NCBI RefSeq assembly: GCF_003855255.1
Contig: NZ_CP034072.1
Span: forward strand, 3,402,727-3,466,726
DNA length: 64,000 nt
Source of the DNA: Mycolicibacterium nivoides
GTDB taxonomy: Bacteria; Actinomycetota; Actinomycetes; Mycobacteriales; Mycobacteriaceae
Direction: 5' to 3'
Shown: positions 14,026 to 35,003 of the stretch, one piece after another
How the letters are laid out: every line of letters begins with the position of its first letter
Position numbering within the stretch: position 1 is the first letter of the stretch
Notes under the pieces: model-generated
What the model was told of the DNA's origin: nothing
Databases searched by the model: none
The model's input: only the letters and a program-made list of their open reading frames with translations
Program-made: the position numbers and the translations under genes

Positions 14026-15060
14026 TCACCGGTAGCGCTGCGCGATCCTTCTGCGGTGTTCAGCGGGCGAACCGAACAGCGAACGGTTGAGCGCGGCGCG
14101 CTTGAGATAGACGTGCACGCCGCTCTCCCAGGTGTAGCCGATGCCTCCGTGCAACTGCATGGCCTTCCCGGCCACCTCGACGGCGGCCTCGGTGGCATTG
14201 ACCTTGGCCATGGACACCGCGAGCGGCGCCGGTTCCGTAATGGCCGCGTTCACCAGCTGGCGAGCGACCGAGATACGCACGAGCATGTCGGCACACGCGT
14301 GCTTGACGGCCTGGAACGAGCCGATCGGACGGCCGAACTGCTGGCGAACCCCGGTGTAGGACACCGTGGTGTCGAGCATGGCCTGGGCGACGCCCAGGCT
14401 GTCGCAGGCCACCGCGAGCGCGGCACGTTCGTTGAGCGCACCCAGCGCGGCCTCAGGGTCGCCGTCGAATCGCCACACCGCGTCCTCGTCGACCTCCACC
14501 CCCTCGGCCGTCACGGTGGCGAGGCTGCGGGTCTCGTCGAGCACCGGCTGCTCGGTGACCGTGAGTCCGGGTGCCTCGGCGGCCACGTCCACCAGCACCG
14601 CGACGCCGTCGGCGTCACGAGCGGGCAGCAGCAGCCGCTGAGCTCCGGCTGCATCGGGCACAAAGGTGGCCCGGCCGTGGACGCGCCAGCCCAGCCTTGT
14701 GGTGCCCAGGTCGAACGGTGCCGGCTCGCCCGTTCCCGGCAGGGCCAGTACGGCACGGATGTTCCCGGCCACCACCGCCTGCAACAATGCGTCACGGCTC
14801 TCGTTGGGTTGCACCGCATTCAGTGCGCCGATGGCCAGCACAGCACCGCCGAGGTAGCGGGTCGCCCCGGCGGCCCGGCCCAGCTCCTCGCAGATCACCG
14901 CCACTTCGGCGAACGTCGCGCCGGCACCGCCTGCCTCATCGGGGGCGTCCAGTCCGACCCACCCCGCCGAGACCAACAGCGGCCAGTCGATGCTGTCCTT
15001 GGCCAGCAGATCAGCTGCCACGGAGCGTAGTTCGTCATGAAGCTCGGAAAACTCGCTCAT
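14026..15060 (-). CDS. Acyl-CoA dehydrogenase, small-subunit type (pair B)
   Basis: A 344-residue acyl-CoA dehydrogenase-fold protein, shorter than the usual 380-400. Recognisable parts are RQQFGRPIGSFQAVKH (the helix that contacts FAD/ADP) and LHGGIGYTWESGVHVYLKRA at the C terminus. It follows the larger acyl-CoA dehydrogenase at 15060-16223 with a one-base overlap (TGATG). Mycobacterial steroid-side-chain dehydrogenases work as alpha2beta2 complexes of adjacent genes with one longer and one shorter chain, so this is probably the partner subunit. It is the last gene of the minus-strand catabolic operon. Confidence 0.88.
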   Translation of the reverse strand: MSEFSELHDELRSVAADLLAKDSIDWPLLVSAGWVGLDAPDEAGGAGATFAEVAVICEELGRAAGATRYLGGAVLAIGALNAVQPNESRDALLQAVVAGNIRAVLALPGTGEPAPFDLGTTRLGWRVHGRATFVPDAAGAQRLLLPARDADGVAVLVDVAAEAPGLTVTEQPVLDETRSLATVTAEGVEVDEDAVWRFDGDPEAALGALNERAALAVACDSLGVAQAMLDTTVSYTGVRQQFGRPIGSFQAVKHACADMLVRISVARQLVNAAITEPAPLAVSMAKVNATEAAVEVAGKAMQLHGGIGYTWESGVHVYLKRAALNRSLFGSPAEHRRRIAQRYR

Positions 15061-16223
15061 CACACCGCACTCGGTTCTCGGGGCAGGCCCAGACCGCGCT
15101 CACCGATGATGGTGCGCTGGATCTCGCTGGCTCCGCCGGGGATGGTCCATTCCCACGATCCGATGAAATCGAGCATCCAGGCGCCCGACTCCCAGCCGCT
15201 GGAGGCCGGTTTGGCCAGCACGGTGTGGGCGTTCAGGCCACCGATCTCGGCACCGAATCCGGTCATCCGCTGCAACAACTCGCTGTAGTACAGCTTGACG
15301 ATCGAAGCGTCGGCCGGGCCGGCCTGCCCCGCCTCGGTCCGTTCCACCAGATCCCGGCACAGCCCGCGCAAGCCGGACAGCTCGATCTCGAACTGCGCCA
15401 GCCGATCTGCCACCACCGGATCCTCGACGGGGGCGGCTTCGAGCAGCCACTTGAAGCCCGCATTGCCCAGCCGTTCCGACAACTCGAGCATGGTCATGCC
15501 GCGCTCGGCGCCGAGCGTGGCCTGGGCCACCTGCCAACCCTTGTTCACCGGGCCGATCAGATTGGCCGCGGGAACGGTGACGTCGTTGAGGAAGATCTCG
15601 CAGAAATGCGAATCCCCCACGGCATTTCGGATCGGCCGCACATCGATGCCCGGTGTGGTCATATCCATCAGGAAGTAGGAGATACCGTGCCGTTTGGGTG
15701 CTTCCGGATCGGTGCGCGCCAGCAGCAGACACCAGTCGGCGTGCAGAGCGCCACTGGCCCAGAGCTTCTGGCCGTTGACGACGAAGTTGTCCCCCTCGGC
15801 GCGGGCGGTCGTGCGCAGGGCTGCCAGATCGGACCCGGCCTCCGGCTCGGAGAACCCCTGCACCCAGATCTCGCCGTCGAGGATGGCGGGCAGGTGACGG
15901 CGCCGCTGTTCCTCGGAGCCTGCCGCGAGCAGGGTGGAGGCGGCGTGGTGGATCCCGACGAACGCCAGCACCAGTCGGGGCGCGTCGTGCGCGGCCAGTT
16001 CCTGATAGAGCACGATCTGCTGGGAAACTGACATGCCACCGCCCCATTCGGCGGGCCAGTGCGGAACCGCGTACCCGGCGGTGTGCAGCTCGGCGAACCA
16101 GGCTTTCTGGAACGACACGAACTCGTCGTCTCCGACACCGGTCTGGTTGGCGCGCCAGTCTTTCGGGACGTGGGCCGCGCACCAGTCCCGCACGGTGGCC
16201 CTGAACTCGTCGAGGTCGGTCAT
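15060..16223 (-). CDS. Acyl-CoA dehydrogenase, large-subunit type (pair B)
   Basis: A 387-residue FAD-dependent acyl-CoA dehydrogenase that introduces an alpha,beta double bond into an acyl-CoA. The FAD-binding motif GFSEPEAGSDLAALRT and the NGQKLWASG segment are intact. The position of the MCAD catalytic glutamate (YEG) reads PGG here, while an ER pair occurs in helix G (GAERGMTML), the location used by isovaleryl-CoA dehydrogenase-type enzymes. It overlaps the flanking small-subunit genes by ATGA and TGATG, so the order is large-small-large-small. Confidence 0.9.
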   Translation of the reverse strand: MTDLDEFRATVRDWCAAHVPKDWRANQTGVGDDEFVSFQKAWFAELHTAGYAVPHWPAEWGGGMSVSQQIVLYQELAAHDAPRLVLAFVGIHHAASTLLAAGSEEQRRRHLPAILDGEIWVQGFSEPEAGSDLAALRTTARAEGDNFVVNGQKLWASGALHADWCLLLARTDPEAPKRHGISYFLMDMTTPGIDVRPIRNAVGDSHFCEIFLNDVTVPAANLIGPVNKGWQVAQATLGAERGMTMLELSERLGNAGFKWLLEAAPVEDPVVADRLAQFEIELSGLRGLCRDLVERTEAGQAGPADASIVKLYYSELLQRMTGFGAEIGGLNAHTVLAKPASSGWESGAWMLDFIGSWEWTIPGGASEIQRTIIGERGLGLPREPSAV

Positions 16224-17152
16224 GACGAGAACAATCCGGTGAGTCCGCGCCGGCCGAGCCGGGCGGTCAGGGTGTCGCGGGTTTTGGACACCCCGAATGG
16301 CAAGCGGCGCAACGGCTGGCTGTAACGCGACAGCCAGGACAGCGTGGTTTCATCGCAGAAGCCGACGGCCCCGTGCAGCTGATGGCACACCCGGAACACC
16401 ACCTCTGCCGCCTCGATCGCGGCCAGGCGCAATGCCAGCGCGTCGTTGATCGCCTCGTCGGCGGAGTTTGTGACCAGGCTCCACAGCGCGTACTTCGCCA
16501 GGATGTCGGCGCCGCTGCGCTCCACCTCGGCATCGGTCAGCTGGAACTGCACGCCCTGGAACGACGACAGCGGCTGGCCGAACTGCCTGCGCAGGCTGAC
16601 GTGTGCGACCGTCAGATCGATGGCCCGGTCCAGCATGCCGAGCAGGGTCCACGACGGCAGCACCAGAGCAAGCGCCACGTCCTTCAGGCCGGCACCGTCC
16701 ACGGAAGACAGCTCCAGCGCGGTGGCGAACGACGGACCGGAGGCACCCGTTGCGGTCACCGTGCTGCGCGTGCCGTCCAATGTGACAGCGGCCCACCGGT
16801 TGTCCAGCCCCTGCAGCGCCGCGTCGGGCGCGTCGGCATCGATGACGACCAGCCCGTCGACGTCCAGATCCGCCGGGCGCGCCAATCGCTCCGCGACCGG
16901 ATACGGCAGCGCCCAATAGCCGGCACTGCGGCACACAGCGGCCGCGGCCTCCAATGAGTCCGCATCGCCGCGTGGTTCGAGCTCGAACACCCCAAGGCCT
17001 TCCAGCACAGGCATGACCAGCCCGGCCCGGGTGTCCGGCTTGGCGTCGGCCTGGGCCAGCAGCTGATCACCGCCGGCGGACTCGAATGCCTTCAGAGCCT
17101 CGCGGCCATACTCTTTCGCGTCATCGCTGAGATCCAGAATCATCGCCGTCAC
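16220..17152 (-). CDS. Acyl-CoA dehydrogenase, small-subunit type (pair A)
   Basis: A 310-residue shortened acyl-CoA dehydrogenase-fold protein. The RRQFGQPLSSFQGVQF segment and the C-terminal LHGAVGFCDETTLSWLSRY are recognisable, but the N-terminal domain is reduced and the helix-G glutamate seen in its neighbours is not apparent (PSWTLLGML). It is most likely the non-catalytic or FAD-contributing partner of the dehydrogenase at 17149-18303. The GTG at 17152 overlaps that gene's stop as GTGA; an ATG at 17143 is the alternative start. Confidence 0.87.
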   Translation of the reverse strand: MTAMILDLSDDAKEYGREALKAFESAGGDQLLAQADAKPDTRAGLVMPVLEGLGVFELEPRGDADSLEAAAAVCRSAGYWALPYPVAERLARPADLDVDGLVVIDADAPDAALQGLDNRWAAVTLDGTRSTVTATGASGPSFATALELSSVDGAGLKDVALALVLPSWTLLGMLDRAIDLTVAHVSLRRQFGQPLSSFQGVQFQLTDAEVERSGADILAKYALWSLVTNSADEAINDALALRLAAIEAAEVVFRVCHQLHGAVGFCDETTLSWLSRYSQPLRRLPFGVSKTRDTLTARLGRRGLTGLFSS

Positions 17153-18303
17153 GCCTTTCCAGCCAGCATGGTTCGCGACAGCAGGATGCGCTGCATCTCG
17201 ATGCTTCCCGAGGACACCGTCGACGCCTGCGAGTACCGCCAGTGATCCTCCACCTCGGCGCGGAAGTACTCGGCACGGCTGTCCCCGCCGCGCGGCAGGA
17301 CTGCGGCAATCTCCATGAGCACCTCGGCGCTCTCCTGATCCAGCCTCGTCACCGCGATCCGATAAGCCGCGGAGTCACCGGGATTCACTCGTCCGGTGGC
17401 CTGCATCGACACCACCCGGTACGCCGTCAGCCGAGCCCGGCGACAATGCGTCAGCATCCGCGTCCAGCGGCCCCGGAGTTCCGCGGGCAATTGCTCCCAC
17501 TTGTCTCCGAGCACCTCGGGCGCGGCCTGCAGCAGCCGCTCGCAGCGCGCGTAGCGCGCGATACCGACGCGCTCGAAGGACACCACGTCCTGCACGATCG
17601 ACCAGCCCTGGTCCACGGTGCCGAGCACATCGGCCTCGGTGACCTTGAGGTCGTCGAAGAACACCTCGTTGAGATGGTGCGGGCCCATCATGGTGCGGAT
17701 CGGGCGCACCTGGATACCCGGTGAATCCATCGGCACCAGGAAGATGGTCATGCCCTGCTGTTTCTTCTCGCCCTTGGACGTGCGGGCGAGCAGGAAGCAC
17801 CACTGCGCCATGGTGGCGTAGGAGGTCCAGATCTTCTGGCCGTTGACCCGCCAGCCGTCGTCCTCCCGGCGGGCGAACGTGCGCAGTGAGGCCAGGTCAG
17901 AACCCGCCTCCGGTTCGGAAAAACCCTGGCACCAGATCACTTCACCGTTGGCGATCGGCGGCAGGTGCTTGCGCTGCTGCTCCTCGGTGCCGTGCCGCAT
18001 GATGATCGGGCCGACCCAGTTGACGCCCATGTACTGGGCCCCGCGCGGCTCGTGGTGCGCCCACATCTCCTCACGCACGACGGTCTGCTCCCAGACCGAC
18101 GCGTCGCCGCCGCCGAACTCCTTCGGCCACGACATGCACAGCAGATGCTGCTGTGCCAGCGTCCGGCAGAACTGCTGCGCCACCGCCAGATCGGCGGGGT
18201 CATCGGTGAACGCGCCGAGAAAATCAGCGGGAACCTGGTCGGCGATCAGCGCACGCAGCTCACCCCGCAGCGCGTCGGCCGCCTCGCCAAAATCGAAATC
18301 CAC
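17149..18303 (-). CDS. Acyl-CoA dehydrogenase, large-subunit type (pair A)
   Basis: A 384-residue acyl-CoA dehydrogenase with GFSEPEAGSDLASLRT (FAD site), NGQKIWTS and a C-terminal SSGSIEMQR in place of the MCAD YEGTSQIQR; a helix-G SFERVG supplies a candidate base. The open frame continues upstream to 18855 but that part lies antisense-like over the CoA-transferase gene; the GTG at 18303 with AGGCCAGGA ahead of it gives the normal family N terminus. It is 34 bases downstream of the CoA-transferase and is coupled to the small subunit by GTGA. Confidence 0.9.
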   Translation of the reverse strand: MDFDFGEAADALRGELRALIADQVPADFLGAFTDDPADLAVAQQFCRTLAQQHLLCMSWPKEFGGGDASVWEQTVVREEMWAHHEPRGAQYMGVNWVGPIIMRHGTEEQQRKHLPPIANGEVIWCQGFSEPEAGSDLASLRTFARREDDGWRVNGQKIWTSYATMAQWCFLLARTSKGEKKQQGMTIFLVPMDSPGIQVRPIRTMMGPHHLNEVFFDDLKVTEADVLGTVDQGWSIVQDVVSFERVGIARYARCERLLQAAPEVLGDKWEQLPAELRGRWTRMLTHCRRARLTAYRVVSMQATGRVNPGDSAAYRIAVTRLDQESAEVLMEIAAVLPRGGDSRAEYFRAEVEDHWRYSQASTVSSGSIEMQRILLSRTMLAGKA

Positions 18304-18337
18304 TCCTGGCCTTTCTATTCCTGCTCTGATTCGCCCG

Positions 18338-19489
18338 TTATCCGGCGATGTCCCGTCGGCCGAGCTCGGCAAGCACCTCGGCAGTATCGGCACCCAGTTC
18401 CGGTGCGTACCCGGCGACGTGGCCCGGAGTCCGGGAGAACCAGGTGGGCACGCCGGGCATCCGCACCCGGCCGTGCGGGGTATCGATGGTCTCGAACAGT
18501 CCGACGGCGTTGAGGTGCTCGTTCTCGAACAGCGCGTCCGGAGTGAGCATGGGCGCGGCGGGAATCTCCAACTCGGTGAACAGATCCAGCCACTCCGCGG
18601 TGGTGCGCTCCTTGAGGGTCTTGGCCACCAGCGCGTACACCGTGTCGATCTGCTTGGCTCTTTGTTCCAGCGTCGCGTACTCGGGGCTGTTCCATGGCGG
18701 CTGCACCCGGTCGATGAAGGCGTTCCAGTGCTTGTCGTTGTAGACGAGCGCCGCGATGTGACCGTCCTTGGTCTCGTACGGCTTGCGGTTGGGGGTGACC
18801 GCCCGCGGGTACACCGCGGGTCCCAGCGGGGGGTCGAACATGGCGCCGTTGGCATGTTCGACCAGCATGAAGGAGGCCATGGTCTCGAACATGCTGACCT
18901 CGACCTCCTGGCCCTCGCCGGTGCGCTCCCGGTGGAACAGGGCCATGGTGGTCGCGTAGAGGGCGGTCAGCCCGGCCACCTTGTCGGCCATGATGGTGCC
19001 GACGTAGGAGGCCTCGCCGGTCAATTGCTGTTGCACCGCGGGCAATCCGCATTCGGCCTGGATGGTGTCGTCGTACGCGGGCCGGTCGGCGTCCGGGCCG
19101 CGCCGGCCGTATCCGTAGCAATTGGTGTAGACGATGCCCGGGTTGATCGCGGCCACGTCGTCGTAGCCGAAGCCGAGCTTGGTGATGGCCTTGGCCCGCA
19201 TCGAGTGGATGAACACATCGGCGTCGGCGATCAGTGCCCGCAGGTCGGCCTTGCCCTGTTCCGAACGCAGATCCAGCACCACGCTGCGCTTGCCGCGGTT
19301 GACGTTGACGAACACGCCGCTCATCCCGGGAGCCGGGCCCACCGAGATATAGCGGGTGTTGTCCCCCGCCGGTGTCTCGACCTTGATGACGTCGGCGCCC
19401 ATGTCGGCCATGATCTGCGTGCAGTACGGCCCCATCACCATCGCGGTGAGGTCGATGACCCGAATGCCCTGCAGTGGACCGGATGTCAT
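18338..19489 (-). CDS. Class III CoA-transferase (CaiB/BaiF family)
   Basis: A 383-residue CoA-transferase of the CaiB/BaiF (formyl-CoA transferase) fold, which moves CoA between carboxylic acids through an aspartyl-CoA thioester. The start GIRVIDLTAMVMGPYCTQ, the NVNRGKRSVVLDL strand and the nucleophile region AYDDTIQAECG (Asp140 or 141) are all conserved. It overlaps the upstream SDR gene by ATGA. In this operon it could activate an acid intermediate before the acyl-CoA dehydrogenases act, sharing the task with the acyl-CoA synthetases across the divergent promoter. Confidence 0.9.
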   Translation of the reverse strand: MTSGPLQGIRVIDLTAMVMGPYCTQIMADMGADVIKVETPAGDNTRYISVGPAPGMSGVFVNVNRGKRSVVLDLRSEQGKADLRALIADADVFIHSMRAKAITKLGFGYDDVAAINPGIVYTNCYGYGRRGPDADRPAYDDTIQAECGLPAVQQQLTGEASYVGTIMADKVAGLTALYATTMALFHRERTGEGQEVEVSMFETMASFMLVEHANGAMFDPPLGPAVYPRAVTPNRKPYETKDGHIAALVYNDKHWNAFIDRVQPPWNSPEYATLEQRAKQIDTVYALVAKTLKERTTAEWLDLFTELEIPAAPMLTPDALFENEHLNAVGLFETIDTPHGRVRMPGVPTWFSRTPGHVAGYAPELGADTAEVLAELGRRDIAG

Positions 19490-20406
19490 GAGTTGACCTC
19501 GTCCGCGGCTCGTCCGAAGCTGTAGCGGATGTGGTCGGCGTGCCCGTCGGGGACCACCGGGAAGATCACCGGCTCGCTGGTATCGCGGATGCGGTCCATC
19601 TGCTCACCGACCTCCTCCACGGTCCACGACGGCTGGTACACCCCCGGCGATTCGGCGACGACGGCGCGGGCGATCCGCCCCGCGATCGCGACGAAGAACT
19701 CGCCGGTGACCGAACAGGATTCGTGCGCCAGCCAGCCCACGGCCGGGGCCACCAGGTCCGCGCCCATCGGCGGGTACGCCGAGGTGTCCAGGCCCTCGGC
19801 CATCCGGGTCACCGCGCCCGGCACGATCGCATTGCACATCACGCCATCGTCGGCGCCCTCCAGTGCCACCACATTGCACAGCCCGAGAATCCCGGCCTTG
19901 GCCGCCGCGTAGTTGGCGACCTGATGGTTGCCGTACAGCCCGCCGATCGACGAGGTCAGCACCACGCGGCCGTATCCGGCCTGGCACATCAGCGGAAATG
20001 CCGGGCGCACAACGTGGAACGCGCCGCGCAGATGCACGTCGAGCACGGCTTCGAAATCGTCGTAGGTGAGTTCCTTCAGCGAGCCGCGCCGCACGGTGCC
20101 CGCGTTGTGGATCAGGATGTCCACGCGACCGAAGCGCTCGACGGCCGCGTCGACGATGGCCTGGCCGCCCTCGGGGGTGGCCACCGAATCCGTGACGGTG
20201 ACGGCTTGGCCACCGGCCGAGACGATTTCGTCGACGACGGCCTGCGCCGGCCCCGAGTCGGTACCGTCCCCGGTGAGACCGCCACCGGGATCGTTGACGA
20301 CGACCTTGGCGCCCCTCGATGCGAGGAGCAGGGCGTATTCGCGGCCGAGTCCCCGGCCGGCCCCGGTGACGACGGCGACGCGCTCGTCGAATCTGAGTGT
20401 GCTCAA
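19486..20406 (-). CDS. Short-chain dehydrogenase, MFE/HSD17B4-like
   Basis: A 306-residue SDR. The cofactor motif is VVTGAGRGLG, followed by NDPGGGLTGDGTDS, the insertion characteristic of the 3-hydroxyacyl-CoA dehydrogenase part of multifunctional enzyme 2. The NAG motif, the catalytic Ser in TSSIGG and YAAAK are present. Family members oxidise (3R)-hydroxyacyl-CoA or hydroxysteroid-like alcohols. It overlaps its neighbours on both sides by ATGA. Confidence 0.9.
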   Translation of the reverse strand: MSTLRFDERVAVVTGAGRGLGREYALLLASRGAKVVVNDPGGGLTGDGTDSGPAQAVVDEIVSAGGQAVTVTDSVATPEGGQAIVDAAVERFGRVDILIHNAGTVRRGSLKELTYDDFEAVLDVHLRGAFHVVRPAFPLMCQAGYGRVVLTSSIGGLYGNHQVANYAAAKAGILGLCNVVALEGADDGVMCNAIVPGAVTRMAEGLDTSAYPPMGADLVAPAVGWLAHESCSVTGEFFVAIAGRIARAVVAESPGVYQPSWTVEEVGEQMDRIRDTSEPVIFPVVPDGHADHIRYSFGRAADEVNS

Positions 20407-21245
20407 GCGAAGGGCTCCTCGCCCTCGAGTTTGGTGCGCTGCAACAGCCGCCCCGACGTCGGGTCATACGGTGTGGCCCGGTGCATGGTCCCGGTGTTGT
20501 CCCAGATCACCAGGTCGCCGACGGTCCACTTGTGCCGGTAGGTGAAGTCCGGTTGGGTGGCCCAATCCCGCAGCCGCACCAGCAGTTCGGCGCTCTTGCG
20601 GAAGTCGATCGGGCCGTCGGCGTCGACGATGTGGCGGGCTGTGGCGCCGAGCACCAGCGACTTACGGCCGGACTGATGCGTCCACACCAACGGCAGTTCC
20701 CGGTCACCGATCGCCATCATGCGGCGCAGAGCCTTCGCACTGGGCTCGGGGTCGTAGTAGAACATCGTGTTCCACGCCGAATGCATGGCGCGCAGGCCCT
20801 CGAGCTCGGCCTTGTCGTCGTCGGACAGGTCGTCGTAGGCGGCGTAGGTGTTGCAGAACTCGGTGTCGCCTTCCTCCGGGTTCCCCAGCGCCACGCTCTG
20901 CAGCAGCGAGGCCAGGATCGGCACCTCGTTCATCGTGCCGTCGATGTGCCAGTACAGCGAGCCCTTGAGGTAGTCGGCCTGCTTGTTCACCTCGGTGTCG
21001 AGGGAGACCTTGTACAGCTTCTCGCCGGCGTGTTCCGGGGCGAACGTCCCGAGGATTTCGGTGAAGGCGATCTGCTCGTCGTCGGTGAACCCGATCTGCG
21101 GGAACACCAGCACCCCGCGCTGCTCGAGCAGTTCTCTGATCCGCCCAGCATGTTCGCCCGAAAGCAGTGTGGCCTTGTCGGCCCGGATCTCGGTTCCGAT
21201 GCGCGGCTTGATATCCCGAGTCTCAAGCGCCGTGGTCGTCGTCAT
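20403..21245 (-). CDS. TauD/TfdA-family Fe(II)/2-oxoglutarate dioxygenase
   Basis: A 280-residue enzyme with the complete facial triad: His100-x-Asp102 (YWHIDGT) and His255 (GTMHRA), with Arg270 placed to bind 2-oxoglutarate. The family couples decarboxylation of 2-oxoglutarate to hydroxylation of a substrate, often releasing sulfite or splitting an ether bond in TauD/TfdA relatives. It is ATGA-coupled to both the Baeyer-Villiger-type monooxygenase upstream and the SDR downstream, placing it firmly in the catabolic operon. The substrate is unknown. Confidence 0.92.
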   Translation of the reverse strand: MTTTTALETRDIKPRIGTEIRADKATLLSGEHAGRIRELLEQRGVLVFPQIGFTDDEQIAFTEILGTFAPEHAGEKLYKVSLDTEVNKQADYLKGSLYWHIDGTMNEVPILASLLQSVALGNPEEGDTEFCNTYAAYDDLSDDDKAELEGLRAMHSAWNTMFYYDPEPSAKALRRMMAIGDRELPLVWTHQSGRKSLVLGATARHIVDADGPIDFRKSAELLVRLRDWATQPDFTYRHKWTVGDLVIWDNTGTMHRATPYDPTSGRLLQRTKLEGEEPFA

Positions 21246-24258: not shown

Positions 24259-24324
24259 TTACGTCTCCTTACTCGGCGATTTGTGTGCGTTTGGCGGCGC
24301 TGACCGCCGCTGGATGCACCCAAA

Positions 24325-25740: not shown

Positions 25741-26586
25741 TTAGATCCTCCTGATGGCTTCGCGGAAGTCGTCGTCCTTGAGGAACAGCGAGGTGTTGTC
25801 GGCGCCGAGGTGGGTCCAGCGCAGGTTCAGCCCGCCGTCGACCAGGATGGTCTGGCCGGTGATGTAGCTCGACAGATCCGAGAGCAGGAACAGGATGGCC
25901 CCGGCCTGCTCCTCGGGAGTACCGCGGCGGCCCATCGCGATCGCCCGCCGGTCCCGCTCGGGGTCGGCATCGACATAGGTTGCCGAGGCCGCGGTTTCGG
26001 TCACCCCAGGAGCGACGGCGTTGACCCGGATGCCTTCGGCGGCGAGTTCTGCGGCCATGGTCCGGGTGGCCGCCACGATCGCGGCCTTCGCTGTGCCGTA
26101 GGCGACGTGATACGGCGCGGTGTTCATTCCGCTGATCGAGGACACCGACACGATCGAGCCCGGGGCGCCCTGGCTGCGGATCTCAGCGGCCACAGCCTGG
26201 CTCATGAAGAACATGGTCTCCAGGTTCGCGGCGAACAGCTCGCGCCAGTCGGCCCGCGAGACCCGGGTGGCGGGCATCCAGGTGGACGGCGCCGCGCCGC
26301 CTGCGACATTCACCAGCCCGTACAGCGTTCCGTCGGCAGCCCGCGCCGCGTCGAGCACCGCCACGATGCCCTCATCGGTGGACGCGTCGGCGGCGACCGT
26401 CACCACGTTCAGTCCCTTGTCGGCCAGCGGTGCCACGTGCGTGTCGAGGTTCTCCTGGGAGCGGCTCACCGCCACCACCGTGGCGCCGGCCTCGGCCGCC
26501 ATCCGCGTGACAGTGGTTCCGATGCCGCCACCACCGGCGCCCGACACCACCACAACGCGGCCGTCCAAGCTCAGGGAACTGTCCAT
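25741..26586 (-). CDS. Short-chain dehydrogenase, first gene of the catabolic operon
   Basis: A 281-residue SDR with GAGGGGIGTTV as the cofactor loop, VAGGA, Ser in SVSSISG and the catalytic AYGTAKAA. It ends in VDGGLNLRWTHLG, a C terminus usual for SDRs of this kind. The ATG at 26586 is preferred over a GTG two codons upstream. It abuts the Rieske oxygenase gene with no spacer. The divergent promoter region upstream carries a perfect GTC-NN-GAC palindrome only about 20 bases away. Confidence 0.9.
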   Translation of the reverse strand: MDSSLSLDGRVVVVSGAGGGGIGTTVTRMAAEAGATVVAVSRSQENLDTHVAPLADKGLNVVTVAADASTDEGIVAVLDAARAADGTLYGLVNVAGGAAPSTWMPATRVSRADWRELFAANLETMFFMSQAVAAEIRSQGAPGSIVSVSSISGMNTAPYHVAYGTAKAAIVAATRTMAAELAAEGIRVNAVAPGVTETAASATYVDADPERDRRAIAMGRRGTPEEQAGAILFLLSDLSSYITGQTILVDGGLNLRWTHLGADNTSLFLKDDDFREAIRRI

Positions 26587-26606
26587 CCGCACCCCAATCG
26601 GCTCAA

Positions 26607-26618
26607 TTGTCCGGACAA
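26607..26618. promoter_or_regulatory. Candidate GntR operator 1
   Basis: TTGTCCGGACAA is a perfect 12-base palindrome close to the start of the minus-strand operon. GTC-NN-GAC cores are used by HutC-type GntR regulators such as DasR, and a regulator of that type is encoded at 28359. Confidence 0.6.
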
Positions 26619-26702
26619 CAAATGACGATCTTCATATTGGAGAACACTATTCCCCAGCACTTATTCAACCGTCAAGGGTCGATCCGAGCTTTTCGACGGC
26701 TA

Positions 26703-26714
26703 TTGTCTGGACTA
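26703..26714. promoter_or_regulatory. Candidate GntR operator 2
   Basis: TTGTCTGGACTA matches operator 1 in 10 of 12 positions and keeps the GTC-NN-GAC core. It lies 25 bases before the beta-propeller gene, 96 bases from operator 1, on the other side of the divergent promoter. Confidence 0.55.
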
Positions 26715-26739
26715 CGGCAAGTTGCTAACGTCCGAGGTC

Positions 26740-28353
26740 ATGAGCGCCCTATCGGCAAATCCCGGCATCGCCAACGCGAGGTACACCGCAAACCCGTCGG
26801 TGGCCGAGAACTGGACGCTGGAGCAGGTCACAGGCCCCAGCAGGCTGTTCGGCGCGAACGGCCTGCGCACCGGTCCGGACGGCCGGATCTACGTCGCCCA
26901 GGTCACCGGCAGCCAGATCAGCGCGCTCGACCTGGAAACCGGACAGCTCGAAACCGTCAGCGCCAAGGGCGGCGACATCATCGCCCCCGACGACGTGGCC
27001 TTCGACCCGAGCGGCAACCTCTACGCGACCGAGGTGATGGACGGCCGGGTCAGCGTGCGCGCAGCCGACGGCACCACCCGCGTGCTGCGCGACGACATCC
27101 CCTCCGCCAACGGCATCACCTTCCACCAGGGCCGGCTGTTCGTCGGAGAATGCCGTGAGGGCGGCCGGCTCATGGAGTTCGACCTGGCCGGCGGCGCCCC
27201 GCGCATCCTGCTCGAGGACGTGCCCTCGCCCAACGCCATGGAAGTCGGCCCCGACGGACTGTTGTATTTCCCGGTGATGGGCGCGAACGAGATCTGGCGT
27301 ATCGATCCCAGCGGCGGCGACCCTCAGGTGGTGGCCGGCGGGCTCGGGGTACCGGACTCGGTCAAGTTCGACGCCGACGGCCACATCGTCTCCACGCAGG
27401 TGGCCAGCGGGCAGGTGCTGCGCATCGACCCGCGCAACGGCGACCAGACGCTGCTGGCCCAGCTCAACCCCGGCCTGGACAACTGCACCTTCGTCGACGG
27501 CCGGCTGTTCGTCTCGAACTTCACCGGCGAGATCACCGAGATCCTGTCGGGTGGCGGCACCGCGCCCCTGCTGCCGGGCGGGCTCAACTGGCCGCTGGAC
27601 CTGACGGTCGGCCCCGACGGCGATCTCTACGTCGCCGACGGCACCTACTTCTACCGGGTGAACCCCGACGGTGGACTGCAGACCGTCGCAATGCTGTTCT
27701 CCCCCGGCTATCCCGGCTTCCTGCGTGGAGTGACCGCCTCGGGCCCAGGCGAGTTCATCGTCACCACCGCCGCGGATACGGTGGCCCGGTTCCGCCCAGC
27801 GGGGGCCGAGGACGAGGTGAGCCAGATTCTCGCCGGCGGCATCGACCAGCCCTATGGCGTGGCACAGGCTCCCGATGGTTCGGTGGTGGTCGTCGAACAG
27901 GGTGCGGGACGCCTACTCTCGGTGCGCGACGGTTCGGTGAGCGTCCTGGCTTCCGGCCTGGACACCCCGGTCGGTGTGGTGATCGGGCCCGACGGCGCGC
28001 CCCTGGTGTCGGTGGCCGGCGCGGTTGTGCGGGTGAGCGGCGGAGGTGTCGCGCCGCTGGTCGACGGATTGCACACGCCGCACGGCATTCTCGTGCGTGA
28101 CGGCGTGCTCTACATCGTCGACTCCGGCAGCAAGGAACTCATCGGCTACGACCTGGACGATGCGGGCCGCACCACGATCGCCACCGGGCTGCCGGTCGGC
28201 CCGCCGCCCGGAGTGACCCCCAAGCCGCTCAAGGGCATGCCGCCGTTCTCCGGCCCGCAGGGCCCGTTCGCCGGGATCACCGCGGGAGCCGATGGAACGC
28301 TTTACATCTCGGGCGACGGCGATGGCAGCGTGCTGGCGCTGCGCAGAGGCTGA
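26740..28353 (+). CDS. SMP-30/gluconolactonase-like beta-propeller protein
   Basis: A 537-residue cytosolic protein made of NHL/SMP-30-type beta-propeller repeats: the motif hydrophobic-x-GPDG-x-hydrophobic-Y-hydrophobic recurs about every 40-45 residues (LRTGPDGRIYVAQ, MEVGPDGLLYFPV, LTVGPDGDLYVAD, VVIGPDGAPLVS). The number of repeats is enough for two propellers or one large one. Relatives include calcium-dependent lactonases. Facing an operon with a Baeyer-Villiger-type enzyme, lactone hydrolysis is an attractive role, but it is inference. The ATG at 26740 is preferred to a TTG at 26722. Confidence 0.8.
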   Translation: MSALSANPGIANARYTANPSVAENWTLEQVTGPSRLFGANGLRTGPDGRIYVAQVTGSQISALDLETGQLETVSAKGGDIIAPDDVAFDPSGNLYATEVMDGRVSVRAADGTTRVLRDDIPSANGITFHQGRLFVGECREGGRLMEFDLAGGAPRILLEDVPSPNAMEVGPDGLLYFPVMGANEIWRIDPSGGDPQVVAGGLGVPDSVKFDADGHIVSTQVASGQVLRIDPRNGDQTLLAQLNPGLDNCTFVDGRLFVSNFTGEITEILSGGGTAPLLPGGLNWPLDLTVGPDGDLYVADGTYFYRVNPDGGLQTVAMLFSPGYPGFLRGVTASGPGEFIVTTAADTVARFRPAGAEDEVSQILAGGIDQPYGVAQAPDGSVVVVEQGAGRLLSVRDGSVSVLASGLDTPVGVVIGPDGAPLVSVAGAVVRVSGGGVAPLVDGLHTPHGILVRDGVLYIVDSGSKELIGYDLDDAGRTTIATGLPVGPPPGVTPKPLKGMPPFSGPQGPFAGITAGADGTLYISGDGDGSVLALRRG

Positions 28354-28358
28354 CACCG

Positions 28359-29096
28359 ATGACACTCACCCCCGCTGACCACCGCTACCTGCAGGTCGCG
28401 CGCACCCTGCGCAAGGAGATCGTCGACGGGGTGTACCCGGTGGGCTCACAATTGCCCACCGAACACGAACTGTGCGAGCGCTTCGAGGTCAGCCGCTACA
28501 CCGTGCGTGAGGCGCTGCGGCGCCTCCGCGACGACAACCTCGTCACGTCACGGCCGCGGGCCGGCACCACGGTGGCCCAGCGGGCCGCGACCAACACCTA
28601 TGCCCAGGACGTGGTCTCGATCAATGACCTGCTGGCCTTCGCCACCGGCGCCCAGTTCACCATCGAGTCCAATGCCATGGTCACCATCGACAGCGAATTG
28701 GTCGAACGCACCGGGCTTCCGCTCGGCGAGCAGTGGCTGGCGGTCCGCGGCTACCGGCAGGCCGATGGCGATCCGGCACCGGTGTGCCGCACCGAGTACT
28801 TCATCAACCGCAGCTTCGCCGCCGTCGGGCGGCTGCTGCAACGACACTCCGGTCCGATCTTCCCGCTGATCGAGGATCTGTTCGGGGTCAGCATCGTCGA
28901 AGTGCACCAGGAGATCTCAGCGATCGTCACGTCCGCCGAACTCGCCGCGGGCCTCAAGGTCGGCGCGGGCACCGCGGCCCTGCAGATGCAGCGCACCTAC
29001 ACCACCTCCGACGGGGAGATCGCCCAGGTCACCGTCAACACCCACCCGTCCGACCGGTTCCGCCACTCCATGACGATGCGCCGGGTCAAGGGCTGA
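28359..29096 (+). CDS. GntR family regulator, HutC type with UTRA domain
   Basis: A 245-residue repressor. The winged helix covers about residues 8-75 (GSQLPTEHELCERFEVSRYTVREALRRL is the classic GntR helix-turn-helix region), followed by a UTRA effector-binding domain with the typical EYFINRSFA and QEISAIVTS segments. It lies six bases downstream of the beta-propeller gene. It is the only dedicated regulator in the 14-33 kb catabolic block and probably binds the two GTC-NN-GAC sites in the divergent promoter, released by a pathway intermediate. Confidence 0.9.
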   Translation: MTLTPADHRYLQVARTLRKEIVDGVYPVGSQLPTEHELCERFEVSRYTVREALRRLRDDNLVTSRPRAGTTVAQRAATNTYAQDVVSINDLLAFATGAQFTIESNAMVTIDSELVERTGLPLGEQWLAVRGYRQADGDPAPVCRTEYFINRSFAAVGRLLQRHSGPIFPLIEDLFGVSIVEVHQEISAIVTSAELAAGLKVGAGTAALQMQRTYTTSDGEIAQVTVNTHPSDRFRHSMTMRRVKG

Positions 29097-29102
29097 GGCA
29101 CG

Positions 29103-30668
29103 GTGCGAAATCTGGTGCGACGGGACGAGGCGCGTTCGGACGACGCCTACGCCCGGGGTCTGTGGGTGTCCACCACCTTGGCCGACGCCCTCGCGGACGC
29201 GGCGCGTGAGAGCCCCGACCGGACGCTTGTGATCGACGGCGACATCACCCTGACGGCGCGCGAATTGCATGACCGGGCACGGGCACTGGCACTGCGGCTC
29301 GCCGACTGGATGCCGGTGGGCAGCGTGGTGTCCTTCATGCTGCCCAACTGGCACGAGGCCGCCATCATCTACCTGGGCGCCACGTTGGCCGGCATGGCGG
29401 TCAACCCGATCCTGCCCTCACTGCGCGACCGGGAACTGTGTTTCATCCTCGACGATGCGCACAGCCGCGCGATCTTCATCCCCGCCCGGTTCGGCAACCA
29501 CGACTACGCCGCGATGCTCACCCGGGTGTGCGGCGGGATGGCCACGCCACCGGAAGTGGTGGTGCTGCGCGGGGACCCGGGCCCGCACCGCTCATTCGAC
29601 GCCCTGCCCGCGGCACGCGACCGGGCCCTGCCCGCGCTCGACCCGGACGACATCCGGATGATCATGTACACCTCCGGGACCACCGGGCGGCCCAAAGGTG
29701 TACTGCACAGCCACAACTCGATCAACGCATTGATCCTACAGCTGCGTCAGCACTGGATGATCGACCCCGGTGACACGTTCCTGGTGCCCTCCCCCATCGC
29801 TCACATCGGCGGTTCCATCTATGCCTTCGAATGCCCCTTGCTGTTGGGCAGCACCGCCGTGCTGATGGAGCGCTGGAACGCCGAGGAGGGCGTGGCCCTG
29901 ATGACCGAACGCAAATGCACCCACATGGCCGGGGCAACACCGTTTCTGGAGCAGCTCCTCGGGGCCGCCGAACGGGCCGGCACCCGGCTACCCGATCTCA
30001 AGGTGTTCATCTGCGGTGGCGCTTCGGTACCTCCGTCGCTCATCCGGCGGGCGTCGGACTACTTCGAGCGAGCCGTGGTCAGCCGGGTCTACGGCTCCAC
30101 CGAGGTGCCGGTGACCACCGTCGGCTCACTGGCACCCGGGGGCATCGAGCACGCCGCCGAGACCGACGGCCGTCCCGGCATCGCCGAGATCCGGCTGGTC
30201 TCCGGCGAGATCCGGGCCCGCGGCCCGCAGATGCTGCTGGGTTATCTGCACCCCGAGGACGAGATCGAATCCTTCGACCAGGACGGCTTCTTCCGCACCG
30301 GGGACCTCGGCCGATGGGTGGATGGCGACTACCTGCAGGTGACCGGGCGGGCCAAGGACCTCATCATCCGCAACGGCGAGAACATCTCCCCCAAGGAAGT
30401 CGAGGACCTCCTGGTCGGCCACCTCGGCATCGTCGAGGTGGCTGTGGTGGGCCTGCCCGATGACCGCACCGGGGAACGTGCCTGCGCGGTACTGGTGACT
30501 TCCGGCGGCCGGCGCCCCGACGTGACCGACCTGGGCCGGGTCCTGGCCCAGCACGGGCTGGCCCGGTTCAAAACACCCGAGCGGGTGGAGATCTGGGATG
30601 CCCTGCCGAAGAACGACGCGGGCAAAGTGTTGAAACATCACATCCGAGCACGGTTGAAGGGCGAATAG
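29103..30668 (+). CDS. Acyl-CoA synthetase (AMP-binding) 1
   Basis: A 521-residue ANL-superfamily ligase that adenylates a carboxylic acid and transfers it to CoA. The P-loop is MYTSGTTGRPKGVLHSH, followed by VYGSTEVPV, FFRTGDLGRW and the C-terminal hinge and lysine region KNDAGKVLKH. The GTG at 29103 follows the GntR stop by six bases, so it is in the same operon. It would activate an acid product of the pathway. Confidence 0.9.
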   Translation: MRNLVRRDEARSDDAYARGLWVSTTLADALADAARESPDRTLVIDGDITLTARELHDRARALALRLADWMPVGSVVSFMLPNWHEAAIIYLGATLAGMAVNPILPSLRDRELCFILDDAHSRAIFIPARFGNHDYAAMLTRVCGGMATPPEVVVLRGDPGPHRSFDALPAARDRALPALDPDDIRMIMYTSGTTGRPKGVLHSHNSINALILQLRQHWMIDPGDTFLVPSPIAHIGGSIYAFECPLLLGSTAVLMERWNAEEGVALMTERKCTHMAGATPFLEQLLGAAERAGTRLPDLKVFICGGASVPPSLIRRASDYFERAVVSRVYGSTEVPVTTVGSLAPGGIEHAAETDGRPGIAEIRLVSGEIRARGPQMLLGYLHPEDEIESFDQDGFFRTGDLGRWVDGDYLQVTGRAKDLIIRNGENISPKEVEDLLVGHLGIVEVAVVGLPDDRTGERACAVLVTSGGRRPDVTDLGRVLAQHGLARFKTPERVEIWDALPKNDAGKVLKHHIRARLKGE

Positions 30669-30669
30669 A

Positions 30670-31455
30670 ATGCAGGTCGCGATCGTCACCGGAGCCAGCA
30701 GCGGCATCGGATTCGGCTGTGCCACCACGCTTGCCGAGGCGGGCATGGCGGTGCTCGGAACCGGCCGCGACGAGGACCGGCTCGCCGAGCTCGAACGGGC
30801 TGTGGGCGACCCGGGCCGGATCGCGACCCTGGCCGTCGACCTGACCGACGACGACGCACCGCAGCGCATCGTCGAGGCCGCGTTGTCCCGCTGGGGCCGT
30901 ATCGACTTCCTGATCAACAACGCCGGCATCGGCAGCCCCAAACCCCTGCACGAGACCGACGACGAAACCTTGGATCACTTCCTCGGGATCATGCTGCGGG
31001 CGCCGTTCCGGTTGGCGCGAGATGTGCTGCCGCACATGGGTCCCGGATCGGCGATCATCAACGTCACCTCCACGTTCGCCGTCGTCGGCGGGCTGCGCGG
31101 CGGAGCCTACTCGGCCGCCAAGGGCGGATTGACCGCACTGACCACCCACATCGCCTGCCAGTACGGCGCGCAGGGCATCCGGTGCAACGCGGTGGCCCCC
31201 GGCGTCACCGTCACCCCGATGGTCGAGCAGCGTCTCAACGATCCGGGGTTCCGCAAGATGCAGACCGAGATGACCCCGCACACCCGCCTGGGCCGGGTCG
31301 AGGACATCGCCGCCACCGTGGCATTCCTGTGCTCCGACGGTGGTGCCTTCATCAACGGGCAGACCATCGTCGTCGACGGCGGCTGGAGCTCGACGAAATA
31401 CCTGTCTGATTTCGCGCTGCGCGCCAACTGGATTGAGGATGGTTCTCAGTCATGA
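30670..31455 (+). CDS. Short-chain dehydrogenase
   Basis: A 261-residue classical SDR: TGASSGIGFG cofactor loop, NNAG at about 88-91, catalytic Ser in NVTSTFA, YSAAKGG and the PG motif following the active site. The start overlaps the end of the upstream synthetase region by one base spacing and its own stop overlaps the next synthetase as ATGA. It would oxidise or reduce an alcohol/ketone intermediate; cofactor preference is not clear. Confidence 0.9.
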   Translation: MQVAIVTGASSGIGFGCATTLAEAGMAVLGTGRDEDRLAELERAVGDPGRIATLAVDLTDDDAPQRIVEAALSRWGRIDFLINNAGIGSPKPLHETDDETLDHFLGIMLRAPFRLARDVLPHMGPGSAIINVTSTFAVVGGLRGGAYSAAKGGLTALTTHIACQYGAQGIRCNAVAPGVTVTPMVEQRLNDPGFRKMQTEMTPHTRLGRVEDIAATVAFLCSDGGAFINGQTIVVDGGWSSTKYLSDFALRANWIEDGSQS

Positions 31456-33008
31456 ATGTCTTCGCGGTGCTCGATCAGGCCGCCGCCCGGTTCGGTGACC
31501 GGGGCGCGGTCTTTCTGGGCGAACGTCAACTGCTCACCTGGGCGGAGCTGCGCGACCGCGTACTGCGCCTGGCCACCTCGCTGAAGGCGCTCGGCGATCG
31601 CGGGACCCGCGTCGCCGTCGCCAGCGAGAACCGGCCCGAGATCGTCGAGCTGATGTTCGCCATCTGGGCGGCCGAGTGCGTTTTCGTACCGATCAACTAC
31701 AAACTGCATCCCCGCGAGATGGCCGACATCCTGGCCGATTCCGGTGCGGCGCAGGTGTTCGCGTCGGCCAAGATCGCCGACGGCCTGGCCGCGTCCACCG
31801 AAGTACCCGTCGAGATCATCGGCACCCCGGACTACTCGGCACGGTTCGCCTCCAGGCCGTCAACCGTGCCCACGACTGATCCGGGCTCGCTGGCCTGGCT
31901 GTTCTACACCAGCGGAACCACCGGAAAATCCAAGGGCGCCATGCTGTCCCACCGCAACCTGATGGCGATGACGGTGGCGCACCTGGCGGACTTCGACGAC
32001 CCGGACGAGAACTGCAGTCTGATCCACGGTGCCCCGATGTCGCACGGCTCCGGTCTGTACATCCCGCCCTACGTGCTGCGCGGTGCCCGTCAGGTGATCC
32101 CGGAATCGGCCGCGTTCGATCCCGACGAGTTCCTGGACCTGTGCGGCCATCACCCCGGCAGCAGCGCCTTTCTCGCGCCGACCATGGTGCAGCGCCTGAT
32201 CCAGACCGGCCGGCCCCGTCCCGAGAACCTGAAAACCGTGGTCTACGGCGGCGGACCGATGTACGTCGACAGCCTCAAGAAGTCCCTGGCCGCCTACGGA
32301 CCGATCTTCGTGCAGCTCTACGGGCAGGGCGAAGCGCCGATGACGATCACCGGGCTGCGCCGCGCGGACCACATTGATGCCGACGACGCGACGCTGGGCT
32401 CTGTCGGTTATCCGCGTTCCGGCGTCGAGGTCGCCGTGCTCACCTCCGACGGCACCCACGCGGCCGTCGACGAGATCGGCGAGATCGTCTGCCGCGGTGA
32501 CGTCGTCATGTCGGGGTACTGGAACAACCCGACCGCCACCGCAGCGACACTCAAGGACGGCTGGCTGCACACCGGTGACATGGGTTCCTTCGATACGCGC
32601 GGCTACCTCACCCTGCGCGATCGTTCCAAGGACGTGGTGATCAGCGGGGGCAGCAACATCTATCCCCGCGAGGTGGAGGAAGCGCTGCTGGAACATCCCG
32701 ATGTCGTGGAGGCGGGCGTGGTGGGCGCACCCGATGCGGACTGGGGTGAGGTGGTGGTGGCGTTCGTGGTCGTATCCGACGCCGCGCTCGATACTGCAAT
32801 GCTCGACGCTCACCTGCTGGAACGCATCGCCCGGTTCAAACGGCCAAAACGCTACGAGTTCATCGACGCGCTGCCGAAGAACAGCTACGGCAAGGTGCTC
32901 AAACGCGAACTGCGGGAGCGGCTGGTACAGCAATGGACGGGCGGGTCCCGACAGGCATACTCTGATGTGATCTGGATCACTTATGCCGGACCCGAGGAGG
33001 CGGGATGA
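31452..33008 (+). CDS. Acyl-CoA synthetase (AMP-binding) 2
   Basis: A 518-residue ANL ligase with FYTSGTTGKSKGAMLSH, LYGQGEAPMTI, LHTGDMGSFD and the C-terminal lysine motif KNSYGKVLKR. It is ATGA-coupled to the SDR upstream. The 3' coding end contains a CRP-like palindrome at 32966-32981, and the stop overlaps the start of a small Cys/His-rich gene. Two synthetases in one operon may handle different acids, for example ring-derived and side-chain products. Confidence 0.9.
   Translation: MNVFAVLDQAAARFGDRGAVFLGERQLLTWAELRDRVLRLATSLKALGDRGTRVAVASENRPEIVELMFAIWAAECVFVPINYKLHPREMADILADSGAAQVFASAKIADGLAASTEVPVEIIGTPDYSARFASRPSTVPTTDPGSLAWLFYTSGTTGKSKGAMLSHRNLMAMTVAHLADFDDPDENCSLIHGAPMSHGSGLYIPPYVLRGARQVIPESAAFDPDEFLDLCGHHPGSSAFLAPTMVQRLIQTGRPRPENLKTVVYGGGPMYVDSLKKSLAAYGPIFVQLYGQGEAPMTITGLRRADHIDADDATLGSVGYPRSGVEVAVLTSDGTHAAVDEIGEIVCRGDVVMSGYWNNPTATAATLKDGWLHTGDMGSFDTRGYLTLRDRSKDVVISGGSNIYPREVEEALLEHPDVVEAGVVGAPDADWGEVVVAFVVVSDAALDTAMLDAHLLERIARFKRPKRYEFIDALPKNSYGKVLKRELRERLVQQWTGGSRQAYSDVIWITYAGPEEAG
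32966..32981. promoter_or_regulatory. CRP-like binding site ahead of the frd genes
   Basis: TGTGATCTGGATCACT fits the TGTGA-N6-TCACA consensus with one mismatch at the last base. It lies inside the 3' end of the acyl-CoA synthetase, 24 bases before the next gene and about 280 bases before frdA. The M. tuberculosis cAMP receptor Rv3676 recognises this sequence type and, as I recall, binds ahead of frdA. Confidence 0.55.
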
Positions 33009-35002: not shown

Positions 35003-35003
35003 G

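Follow-up and report, generated by a model that had tools for sequence, protein, structure and literature searches.

A cluster of sixteen genes, common in mycobacteria, is described here in Mycolicibacterium nivoides; it probably serves to break down a bulky cyclic compound. The cluster lies in a 64-kb window (the whole stretch of DNA that was analyzed, positions 3402727-3466726 of a single-contig genome of 6.9 Mb; all coordinates below are those of the window), where eleven genes on the minus strand (26586-14026) and five on the plus strand (26740-33008) depart from a common gap. Nine of the genes form a conserved core, the gap contains a conserved pair of putative operators, and one gene of the minus arm, coding for a luciferase-like flavin-dependent enzyme (LLM), alternates in relatives with that of a thiamine-diphosphate (ThDP) enzyme: among 101 genomes, none carries both. 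In the reading that we prefer, with a probability of about 0.45, the cluster is a catabolic regulon under a single regulator, in which LLM would perform, on a bulky cyclic substrate, a C-C cleavage step of the ThDP type.

Core and accessory genes

The type I Baeyer-Villiger monooxygenase (BVMO) of the cluster was used as query and at least 80 named loci were collected, in which its identity ranges from 68 to 96%; the nearest named relatives, among the matches listed, are M. porcinum, Mycobacterium sp. GA-1841 and M. senegalense (94-96%), which probably places the organism in the fortuitum group. Gene presence in the 80 loci is scored at 50% identity or above, truncated loci included. Counts out of 69 refer to the named loci with full flanks, the other 11 being excluded. 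Two surveys cover 128 genomes of the genus and 394 of the class, and 16 more distant or paralogous stretches (L148-L163) were also compared. Hits shorter than 40-50% of the query were discarded in comparisons of loci, distant stretches and split pieces.

The nine core genes, coding for a beta-propeller, three short-chain dehydrogenases (SDR1, SDR2, SDR3), a Rieske oxygenase (ROX), BVMO, a CoA-transferase, a GntR-type regulator and the acyl-CoA ligase FadD1, are found together in 66 of the 69 full-flank loci; the three loci with an incomplete core (L073, L074, L076) are all from Mycolicibacter. In the whole set of 80, the Rieske gene and BVMO are always present, SDR1 and SDR2 are found in 79 loci and the CoA-transferase in 75, while propeller, GntR, FadD1 and SDR3 are found in 72 each. 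The gene set is thus kept together far beyond chance co-occurrence. LLM (23086..24258, minus strand) is present in only 18 of the 80 loci and a TauD-type 2-oxoglutarate oxygenase (20403..21245, minus strand) in 9, and both are therefore regarded as accessory. Where they are missing, their neighbors sit 0-106 bases apart, with the exception of locus L038, from M. porcinum, which is among the closest relatives of the window: here TauD is reduced, between BVMO and SDR2, to residues 202-280, its last third, indicating ongoing loss of the gene. The locus counts and the closed-up neighbors rule out LLM and TauD as core oxygenases.

A preliminary description of this DNA had seen three or four oxygenase types as parts of one route, and had proposed a neighborhood search for BVMO, TauD and LLM together. 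The core around BVMO is conserved; the single route is not supported in that form, as LLM and TauD are accessory and LLM alternates with the ThDP enzyme.

The Rieske gene is present in 101 of the 128 genus genomes and in 36 of the 394 class genomes: 24 of the window's genus, one of another genus of its family and 11 of families f31 and f32. In nine of the 16 distant stretches (L148-L156), propeller, SDR1, ROX, BVMO and SDR2 follow each other in a row on one strand; the colinear propeller therefore belongs to the core. In L157 and L158 the set is present, with BVMO apart on the opposite strand; L161 has no propeller, and L159, L160, L162 and L163 contain scattered relatives only. L162 (G007:C224) also features another BVMO (54%), not far from a MaoC-like gene that is 77% identical to the core-adjacent copy in other families; this region may encode a paralogous pathway or a continuation of the present one. 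In L148, L149 and L152-L155, from another actinobacterial family, the core cassette is flanked by a P450 gene and an amidohydrolase-like one. Finally, in a close relative with a near-identical LLM (L207, G521:C12:153330-154676), the Rieske gene contains an in-frame TGA, due to either decay or assembly error.

Alternation of LLM and the ThDP enzyme

In many relatives, the genes near the core include those of a ThDP enzyme (about 568 aa) and of an aldehyde dehydrogenase (ALDH). Neither has a close copy in the window's own genome, where the best matches are 28% and 47% identical, respectively. The 101 Rieske-positive genomes comprise 35 with LLM, 64 with the ThDP enzyme, two with neither and none with both; a match to LLM or to the ThDP enzyme is never found, among the 128 genomes, without the Rieske gene. 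The two genomes with neither (G464, G508) are each 7% contaminated: the Rieske gene of G464 lies on a 6.9 kb contig, where an adjacent LLM would fit while a ThDP gene 10 kb off would not, and that of G508 stops four bases from the contig end. The same partition is observed in the 69 full loci (LLM 14, ThDP 52, both 0, neither 3).

In 57 of the 64 genomes the ThDP and Rieske genes are linked; in three the ThDP gene is found on another contig and in four 2.7-3.3 Mb away. Since the exclusion also holds for these seven unlinked cases, it does not result from competition for one site. ALDH accompanies the ThDP enzyme in all 64 genomes, and is found in 7 of the 35 with LLM. Other accessory genes, used as control on the 69 loci, meet both enzymes: TauD co-occurs with LLM in 4 loci and with ThDP in 3, the acyl-CoA dehydrogenases (ACADs) in 6 and 29, and FadD2 is also found with both. 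Apart from LLM and ThDP, a strong negative pairing is seen only for LLM with ALDH, both present in one locus of the 69. Weak associations link TauD positively to LLM (4 of 14 LLM loci vs 4 of 55 others; p 0.048, calculated ignoring ancestry) and negatively to ThDP (p 0.018).

Outside the genus, 8 of 14 stretches contain the ThDP gene and none contains LLM. In the class survey, LLM is found, at 81% identity or above, in 5 of the 394 genomes, all of this genus, the next match being at 42%. With LLM confined to the genus and the ThDP enzyme more widely spread, the LLM form looks derived. Two trees of the core proteins (the first built leaving out L114, which has fewer than 3 genes, the second leaving out the second Rieske copy of G513) need 4 and 5 LLM/ThDP changes, respectively, and the sister rows L083 (LLM) and L091 (ThDP) differ in state.

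The alternation suggests that the two enzymes do the same job: we propose that LLM replaces the ThDP enzyme, usually together with its ALDH, at one C-C cleavage step. A broader statement is put forward tentatively, at slightly less than even odds: LLM and a ThDP lyase plus ALDH, of unrelated folds and cofactors, would be interchangeable at one step, having switched at least four times; LLM would oxidatively cleave a C-C bond adjacent to a carbonyl, and the dual-operator GntR switch would have survived fission of the cluster.

Attempts to define the ThDP enzyme as a lyase, a decarboxylase or a dione hydrolase were abandoned: chains of acetolactate synthase, oxalyl-CoA decarboxylase and lyases give similar scores, and NCBIfam cut-offs are not reached (2-hydroxyacyl-CoA lyase, 156 of 600 bits). 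In L066, L080, L081, L089, L151-L153 and L155, ThDP enzyme and ALDH are followed by an AcuI-type acrylyl-CoA reductase and a MaoC-like hydratase, a hint that the ThDP form may end in a three-carbon product; the L153 copy of AcuI scores above the curated cut-off. No match to AcuI, the MaoC-like protein, the P450 or the amidohydrolase is found, at E 1e-10, in the window and its 20 kb flanks.

Paired operator sites

Putative operator 1 (26607..26618), located 20 bases before the SDR1 start, is a perfect palindrome, TTGTCCGGACAA; its exact copy is found once in the 6.9 Mb genome, between the two arms. Putative operator 2 (26703..26714), 96 bp from the former and 25 bases before the propeller start, is degenerate: TTGTCTGGACTA, or TAGTCCAGACAA on the reverse strand. 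In 70 homologous gaps, including that of the window, the best site has no mismatches in 59 cases, one in 10 and two in one; of 1400 base-shuffled gaps, none contains a perfect site and nine a site with two mismatches or fewer. A second, weaker site is found 95-97 bp off, on the propeller side, in 68 of the 70 gaps, the window's own included. When the window is considered alone, sites with two mismatches are not significant (4 found vs 1.84 expected); the case for operator 2 is made by its conserved position and by its occurrence in each of the 9 gaps read in split loci.

Split loci are found in seven genomes, arranged like L073, L074 and L076. One piece, read in all seven, carries GntR and propeller on one side, CoA-transferase, ACADs and ThDP enzyme on the other; the second piece, SDR1-Rieske-BVMO-(TauD)-SDR2-ALDH, was read in two (L289, L290). 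In four genomes the pieces are separated by 2.7-3.3 Mb; in the other three they are found on different contigs. The site is kept at both pieces in all seven genomes; in six of them these are the only matches to TTGTYCGRACAA, while the seventh has a third one. Paired sites, 96-98 bp apart, are found in all 9 gaps read (seven of the first kind, two of the second). In six of the seven stretches the site adjoins propeller and GntR; the other stretch ends before GntR. Likewise, in L053, L059 and L099, where the ThDP gene is located between those of propeller and SDR1, the site is found ahead of the ThDP gene. Since the pair is kept also where only one cluster promoter remains, the two sites may act together, for example by looping.

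The regulator gene (28359..29096, plus strand) codes for a protein with a GntR helix-turn-helix (Pfam, 77 bits) and a UTRA ligand domain (60 bits), that is, of the HutC type, and is the sole regulator among the 16 cluster genes; judging from this gene content, its product would bind the paired sites. The two arms look like one regulon with one regulator gene, and the idea of one coupled regulon, already advanced in the preliminary description, is supported by the exact site, single in the genome, by the paired sites and by their retention at the split.

In four Rieske-negative genomes TTGTYCGRACAA is found 2, 0, 0 and 1 times, the mean for a reversed-pattern control being 0.65 per genome. Operator-pattern matches off the cluster, at G012:C1:1891462, G460:C1:2221152, G523:C139:58070 and G001:C37:27097, are either chance occurrences or further members of the regulon.

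Gene layout and features of single proteins

The minus arm runs from the ATG of SDR1 (26586) to the stop of ACAD-beta2 (14026); its eleven genes, and the functions given to them earlier, are all confirmed by domain scans. They are tightly packed, as anticipated: of the ten junctions, six overlap by 4 bases and one by 1 base, one abuts and two are gapped, by 66 and 34 bases, the latter value holding if ACAD-alpha1 starts at GTG 18303. The plus arm had been described as facing the minus one; the two arms are in fact divergent, back to back. Its propeller, GntR and two ligases had been recognized, while a fifth gene, SDR3 (30670..31455; Pfam), between the ligases, had not been counted. FadD1 (29103..30668) and FadD2 (31452..33008, the latter present in 49 of the 69 full loci) show the profiles and motifs of acyl-CoA ligases.

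ROX (24325..25740, as all those that follow up to the ACADs on the minus strand) is a Rieske oxygenase alpha subunit, with Pfam Rieske and Ring_hydroxyl_A domains, the Rieske motif, and Glu225 within E-x2-H-x4-H. This glutamate is invariant in all 101 rows of the genus and in all 15 distant ones; in the latter both histidines are kept as well. It lines up with that of carnitine monooxygenase (6y9c). Glutamate in this motif has a bridging role, and is a trait of the GbcA/CntA family. With such a residue and best matches in the carnitine/betaine branch, ring hydroxylation by ROX stays a prediction.

BVMO (21242..23089) contains FTGHVFHSARWD at 218, between GGGFAG at 76 and GTGATG at 253; the fingerprint of type I enzymes is FxGxxxHxxxW(P/D), between two Rossmann GxGxxG motifs. 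It scores 411 bits against PDB 5mq6 and 692 bits against NCBIfam PtlE, below the cut-off of 1100. LLM has a Pfam Bac_luciferase domain, with the alkanal monooxygenase alpha chain as top PDB match; hints at its cofactor diverge, TIGR03619 (115 of 166.9 bits) pointing to F420 and the luciferase-type PDB matches to FMN. TauD features the Pfam domain and HxD...H. SDR1 (25741..26586; Pfam adh_short_C2) is 76-81% identical in L148-L156; SDR2 (19486..20406), which matches family profiles and is PRK07791-like, is also kept in distant stretches. The CoA-transferase (18338..19489; CoA_transf_3, 386 bits) is of family III (CaiB type).

The four ACADs are present as originally listed, and prove to be two large/small pairs: alpha1 (17149..18303, GTG start assumed), with Pfam N, M and C domains, is followed by beta1 (16220..17152; Pfam domains and motifs), and alpha2 (15060..16223; Pfam domains) by the IpdE2-like beta2 (14026..15060). 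Both small members lack the middle (M) domain, and within each pair the motifs are complementary. Beta2 scores 160 bits against NCBIfam IpdE2 (cut-off 450), and its top PDB match is Tcur3481 (6wy8). Paired full-length and M-lacking subunits with complementary motifs are a hallmark of alpha2beta2 steroid-type acyl-CoA dehydrogenases, which the two pairs resemble in this respect.

The propeller (26740..28353, plus strand) is SMP-30/Vgb-like: Pfam scores are above cut-off for SGL (59.1 vs 26.3) and Vgb_lyase (52.6 vs 50 bits), in keeping with the lactonase-like function attributed to it. An N or D is invariantly repeated about every 41 residues, from position 40 to 248. In the AlphaFold model (pLDDT 89.5), 46 strands are predicted, enough for about 12 blades. 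The model is compatible with a lactonase, and other NHL-type propellers fit slightly better.

Two neighboring genes complete the picture. The fumarate reductase genes frdA/frdB (33260-35747; FrdA above the curated equivalog cut-off), on the same strand, 251 bases past FadD2, are probably a separate unit. Downstream of the minus arm, 12603-13376 codes for a two-domain glyoxalase-like protein, KbpA-like below cut-off; it adjoins the cluster in only 4 of the 80 named loci (L038-L040, L072).

Proposed pathway

From the predicted functions, a possible route may be outlined. A GntR/HutC-type repressor, freed by a pathway intermediate, would control both arms via the two operators. The Rieske enzyme and SDR1 would oxidize the bulky cyclic substrate to a ketone, beside which BVMO would insert an oxygen, generating an ester or a lactone, possibly opened by the propeller. 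FadD1, FadD2 and the CoA-transferase would turn the acid into a CoA thioester, and the two alpha2beta2-type ACADs, with SDR2, would begin beta-oxidation of the hindered acyl-CoA. LLM, with reduced flavin and oxygen, would cleave a C-C bond beside a carbonyl, leading directly to an acid; in most relatives, the same cleavage would be performed by the ThDP enzyme, and the resulting aldehyde oxidized by ALDH. The alternating step fits the cleavage of a bond between two oxidized carbons.

Luciferase-like enzymes able to carry out Baeyer-Villiger oxidation are known, as in the case of the diketocamphane enzymes. A further precedent is the LLM of Caenibius tardaugens, for which the same reaction is reported in the part of PMC12239570 available to us. 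The presence of two alpha2beta2-type ACADs suggests a hindered, steroid-like or polycyclic acyl-CoA, in line with the sterol precedent found in the available part of PMC6678751.

Weighing of the alternatives

A number of results weigh against the proposed regulon and its alternating step. The LLM and ThDP genes occupy different operon positions. ALDH is also found in 9 of the 27 Rieske-negative genomes, plus G464: it is therefore not specific for the cluster, and less strictly tied to it. The Fisher test for the LLM/ThDP exclusion in the 101 genomes (p 4e-25) overstates the evidence, as it counts related genomes as independent; the independent pairs found on supported branches go in the expected direction in 4 cases out of 4, yet the sign test, underpowered, gives p 0.125. 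As to the operators, when one mismatch is allowed the genome contains 5 sites vs 4 for the reversed control, so that only the exact site stands out; TTGTYCGRACAA is found at the cluster in only 5 of the 9 unsplit cluster-bearing genomes searched, and no site with one mismatch or fewer is found in loci outside the genus. Among the single proteins, the top PDB and NCBIfam matches of ROX are carnitine/glycine-betaine monooxygenases, above ring oxygenases, although its score with GbcA (120 of 670 bits) is below the cut-off; the best folds for the propeller, by VIA-align, are other NHL-type propellers, about 2 Z units above lactonases.

LLM might act alongside BVMO as a type II Baeyer-Villiger enzyme, duplicating its function, and its alternation with ThDP an accident of a few lineage-specific replacements. 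The two genes are directly adjoining, four or five switches suffice, and BVMO and LLM of C. tardaugens are functionally redundant on progesterone in the available part of PMC12239570; redundancy with BVMO, however, leaves unexplained why LLM and ThDP never meet in 101 genomes, while both meet TauD and the ACADs, and we consider this rather unlikely. Alternatively, LLM clusters and ThDP clusters could serve two related, different substrates, the switch tracking the substrate rather than an equivalence of enzymes. The weak enrichment of TauD with LLM and the spread in BVMO identity among the 80 loci would agree with this; core genes and operators are, on the contrary, unchanged across switches, even sister rows differing in state, which makes two substrates an unlikely explanation.

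The cluster could also be a new arrangement of a known degradation of steroids, alicyclic ketones (chn type) or polycyclic aromatic hydrocarbons, as paired steroid-type ACADs (PMC6678751, available part) would suggest. This appears improbable: within the families listed, at most 25 for each protein, none of the 16 cluster proteins reaches a curated cut-off for steroid or cyclohexanone steps, and no such cluster was found in the open-licence literature, among the matches listed. A biosynthetic cluster of the pentalenolactone type, finally, is suggested by PtlE as top NCBIfam match of BVMO and by a 72-bit match of TauD to PtlD. Since the cut-offs are not reached (for PtlD, 550) and the gene content is degradative, this candidate was dropped as very improbable: the genes scanned include no terpene synthase, most loci lack TauD, and the other genes are of the degradative acyl-CoA type. 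Lumichrome/riboflavin degradation also features Rieske and ThDP enzymes, but its steps, as described in the available part of PMC12752717, differ.

Comparison with described systems

The cluster looks to be of the BVMO-to-beta-oxidation catabolic type, set apart by its unusual combination of genes, by its paired putative operators and by a module that would be interchangeable. As supposed in the preliminary description, no described match for the set is found in the open-licence literature, among the matches listed; no matching locus is present in the available part of PMC3599157. The Rieske monooxygenases CntA and GbcA share with ROX the glutamate and the best matches; they differ in that ROX (471 aa) is far below the GbcA cut-off and no betaine genes are seen in the cluster. 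BVMO resembles, by its fingerprint and by its best PDB and NCBIfam matches, a branch of type I enzymes to which we assume PockeMO (presumably 5mq6), CPDMO and PtlE to belong, while scoring below the PtlE cut-off. The best PDB matches of beta2 include Tcur3481 and a chain of 4x28; these, like Tcur3481/3483 and IpdE1-IpdE2, we take to be alpha2beta2 ACADs of sterol catabolism. ChsE4-ChsE5 (PMC6678751, available part) likewise have adjoining large and small subunits whose motifs are complementary, but beta2 stays below the IpdE2 equivalog cut-off and the window contains no sterol cluster.

The closest described system is the pdc cluster of C. tardaugens, for progesterone: according to the available part of PMC12239570, it is a small inducible cluster, in which BVMO and LLM both perform Baeyer-Villiger oxidation of a steroid ketone. 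The two systems have in common a type I BVMO and an LLM in one cluster, the two genes overlapping here by 4 bases. They differ in that pdc consists of four genes, with TetR and LuxR regulators in place of GntR-UTRA; as described in the same part of that source, it includes neither a Rieske gene nor genes for a CoA-transferase, FadD, paired ACADs, a propeller or GntR.

Significance

With the Rieske gene in 101 of 128 genus genomes and no description of the cluster among the literature matches listed, a widespread use of carbon by mycobacteria may lack a known substrate. The alternation of LLM and ThDP enzyme offers a direct genetic test of equivalence between unrelated families, and narrows the chemistry to C-C cleavage adjacent to a carbonyl; if the proposal is true, oxidative cleavage by LLM mirrors thiamine chemistry. 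The conserved paired site, in turn, provides a ready reporter for the inducer, which would name the substrate.

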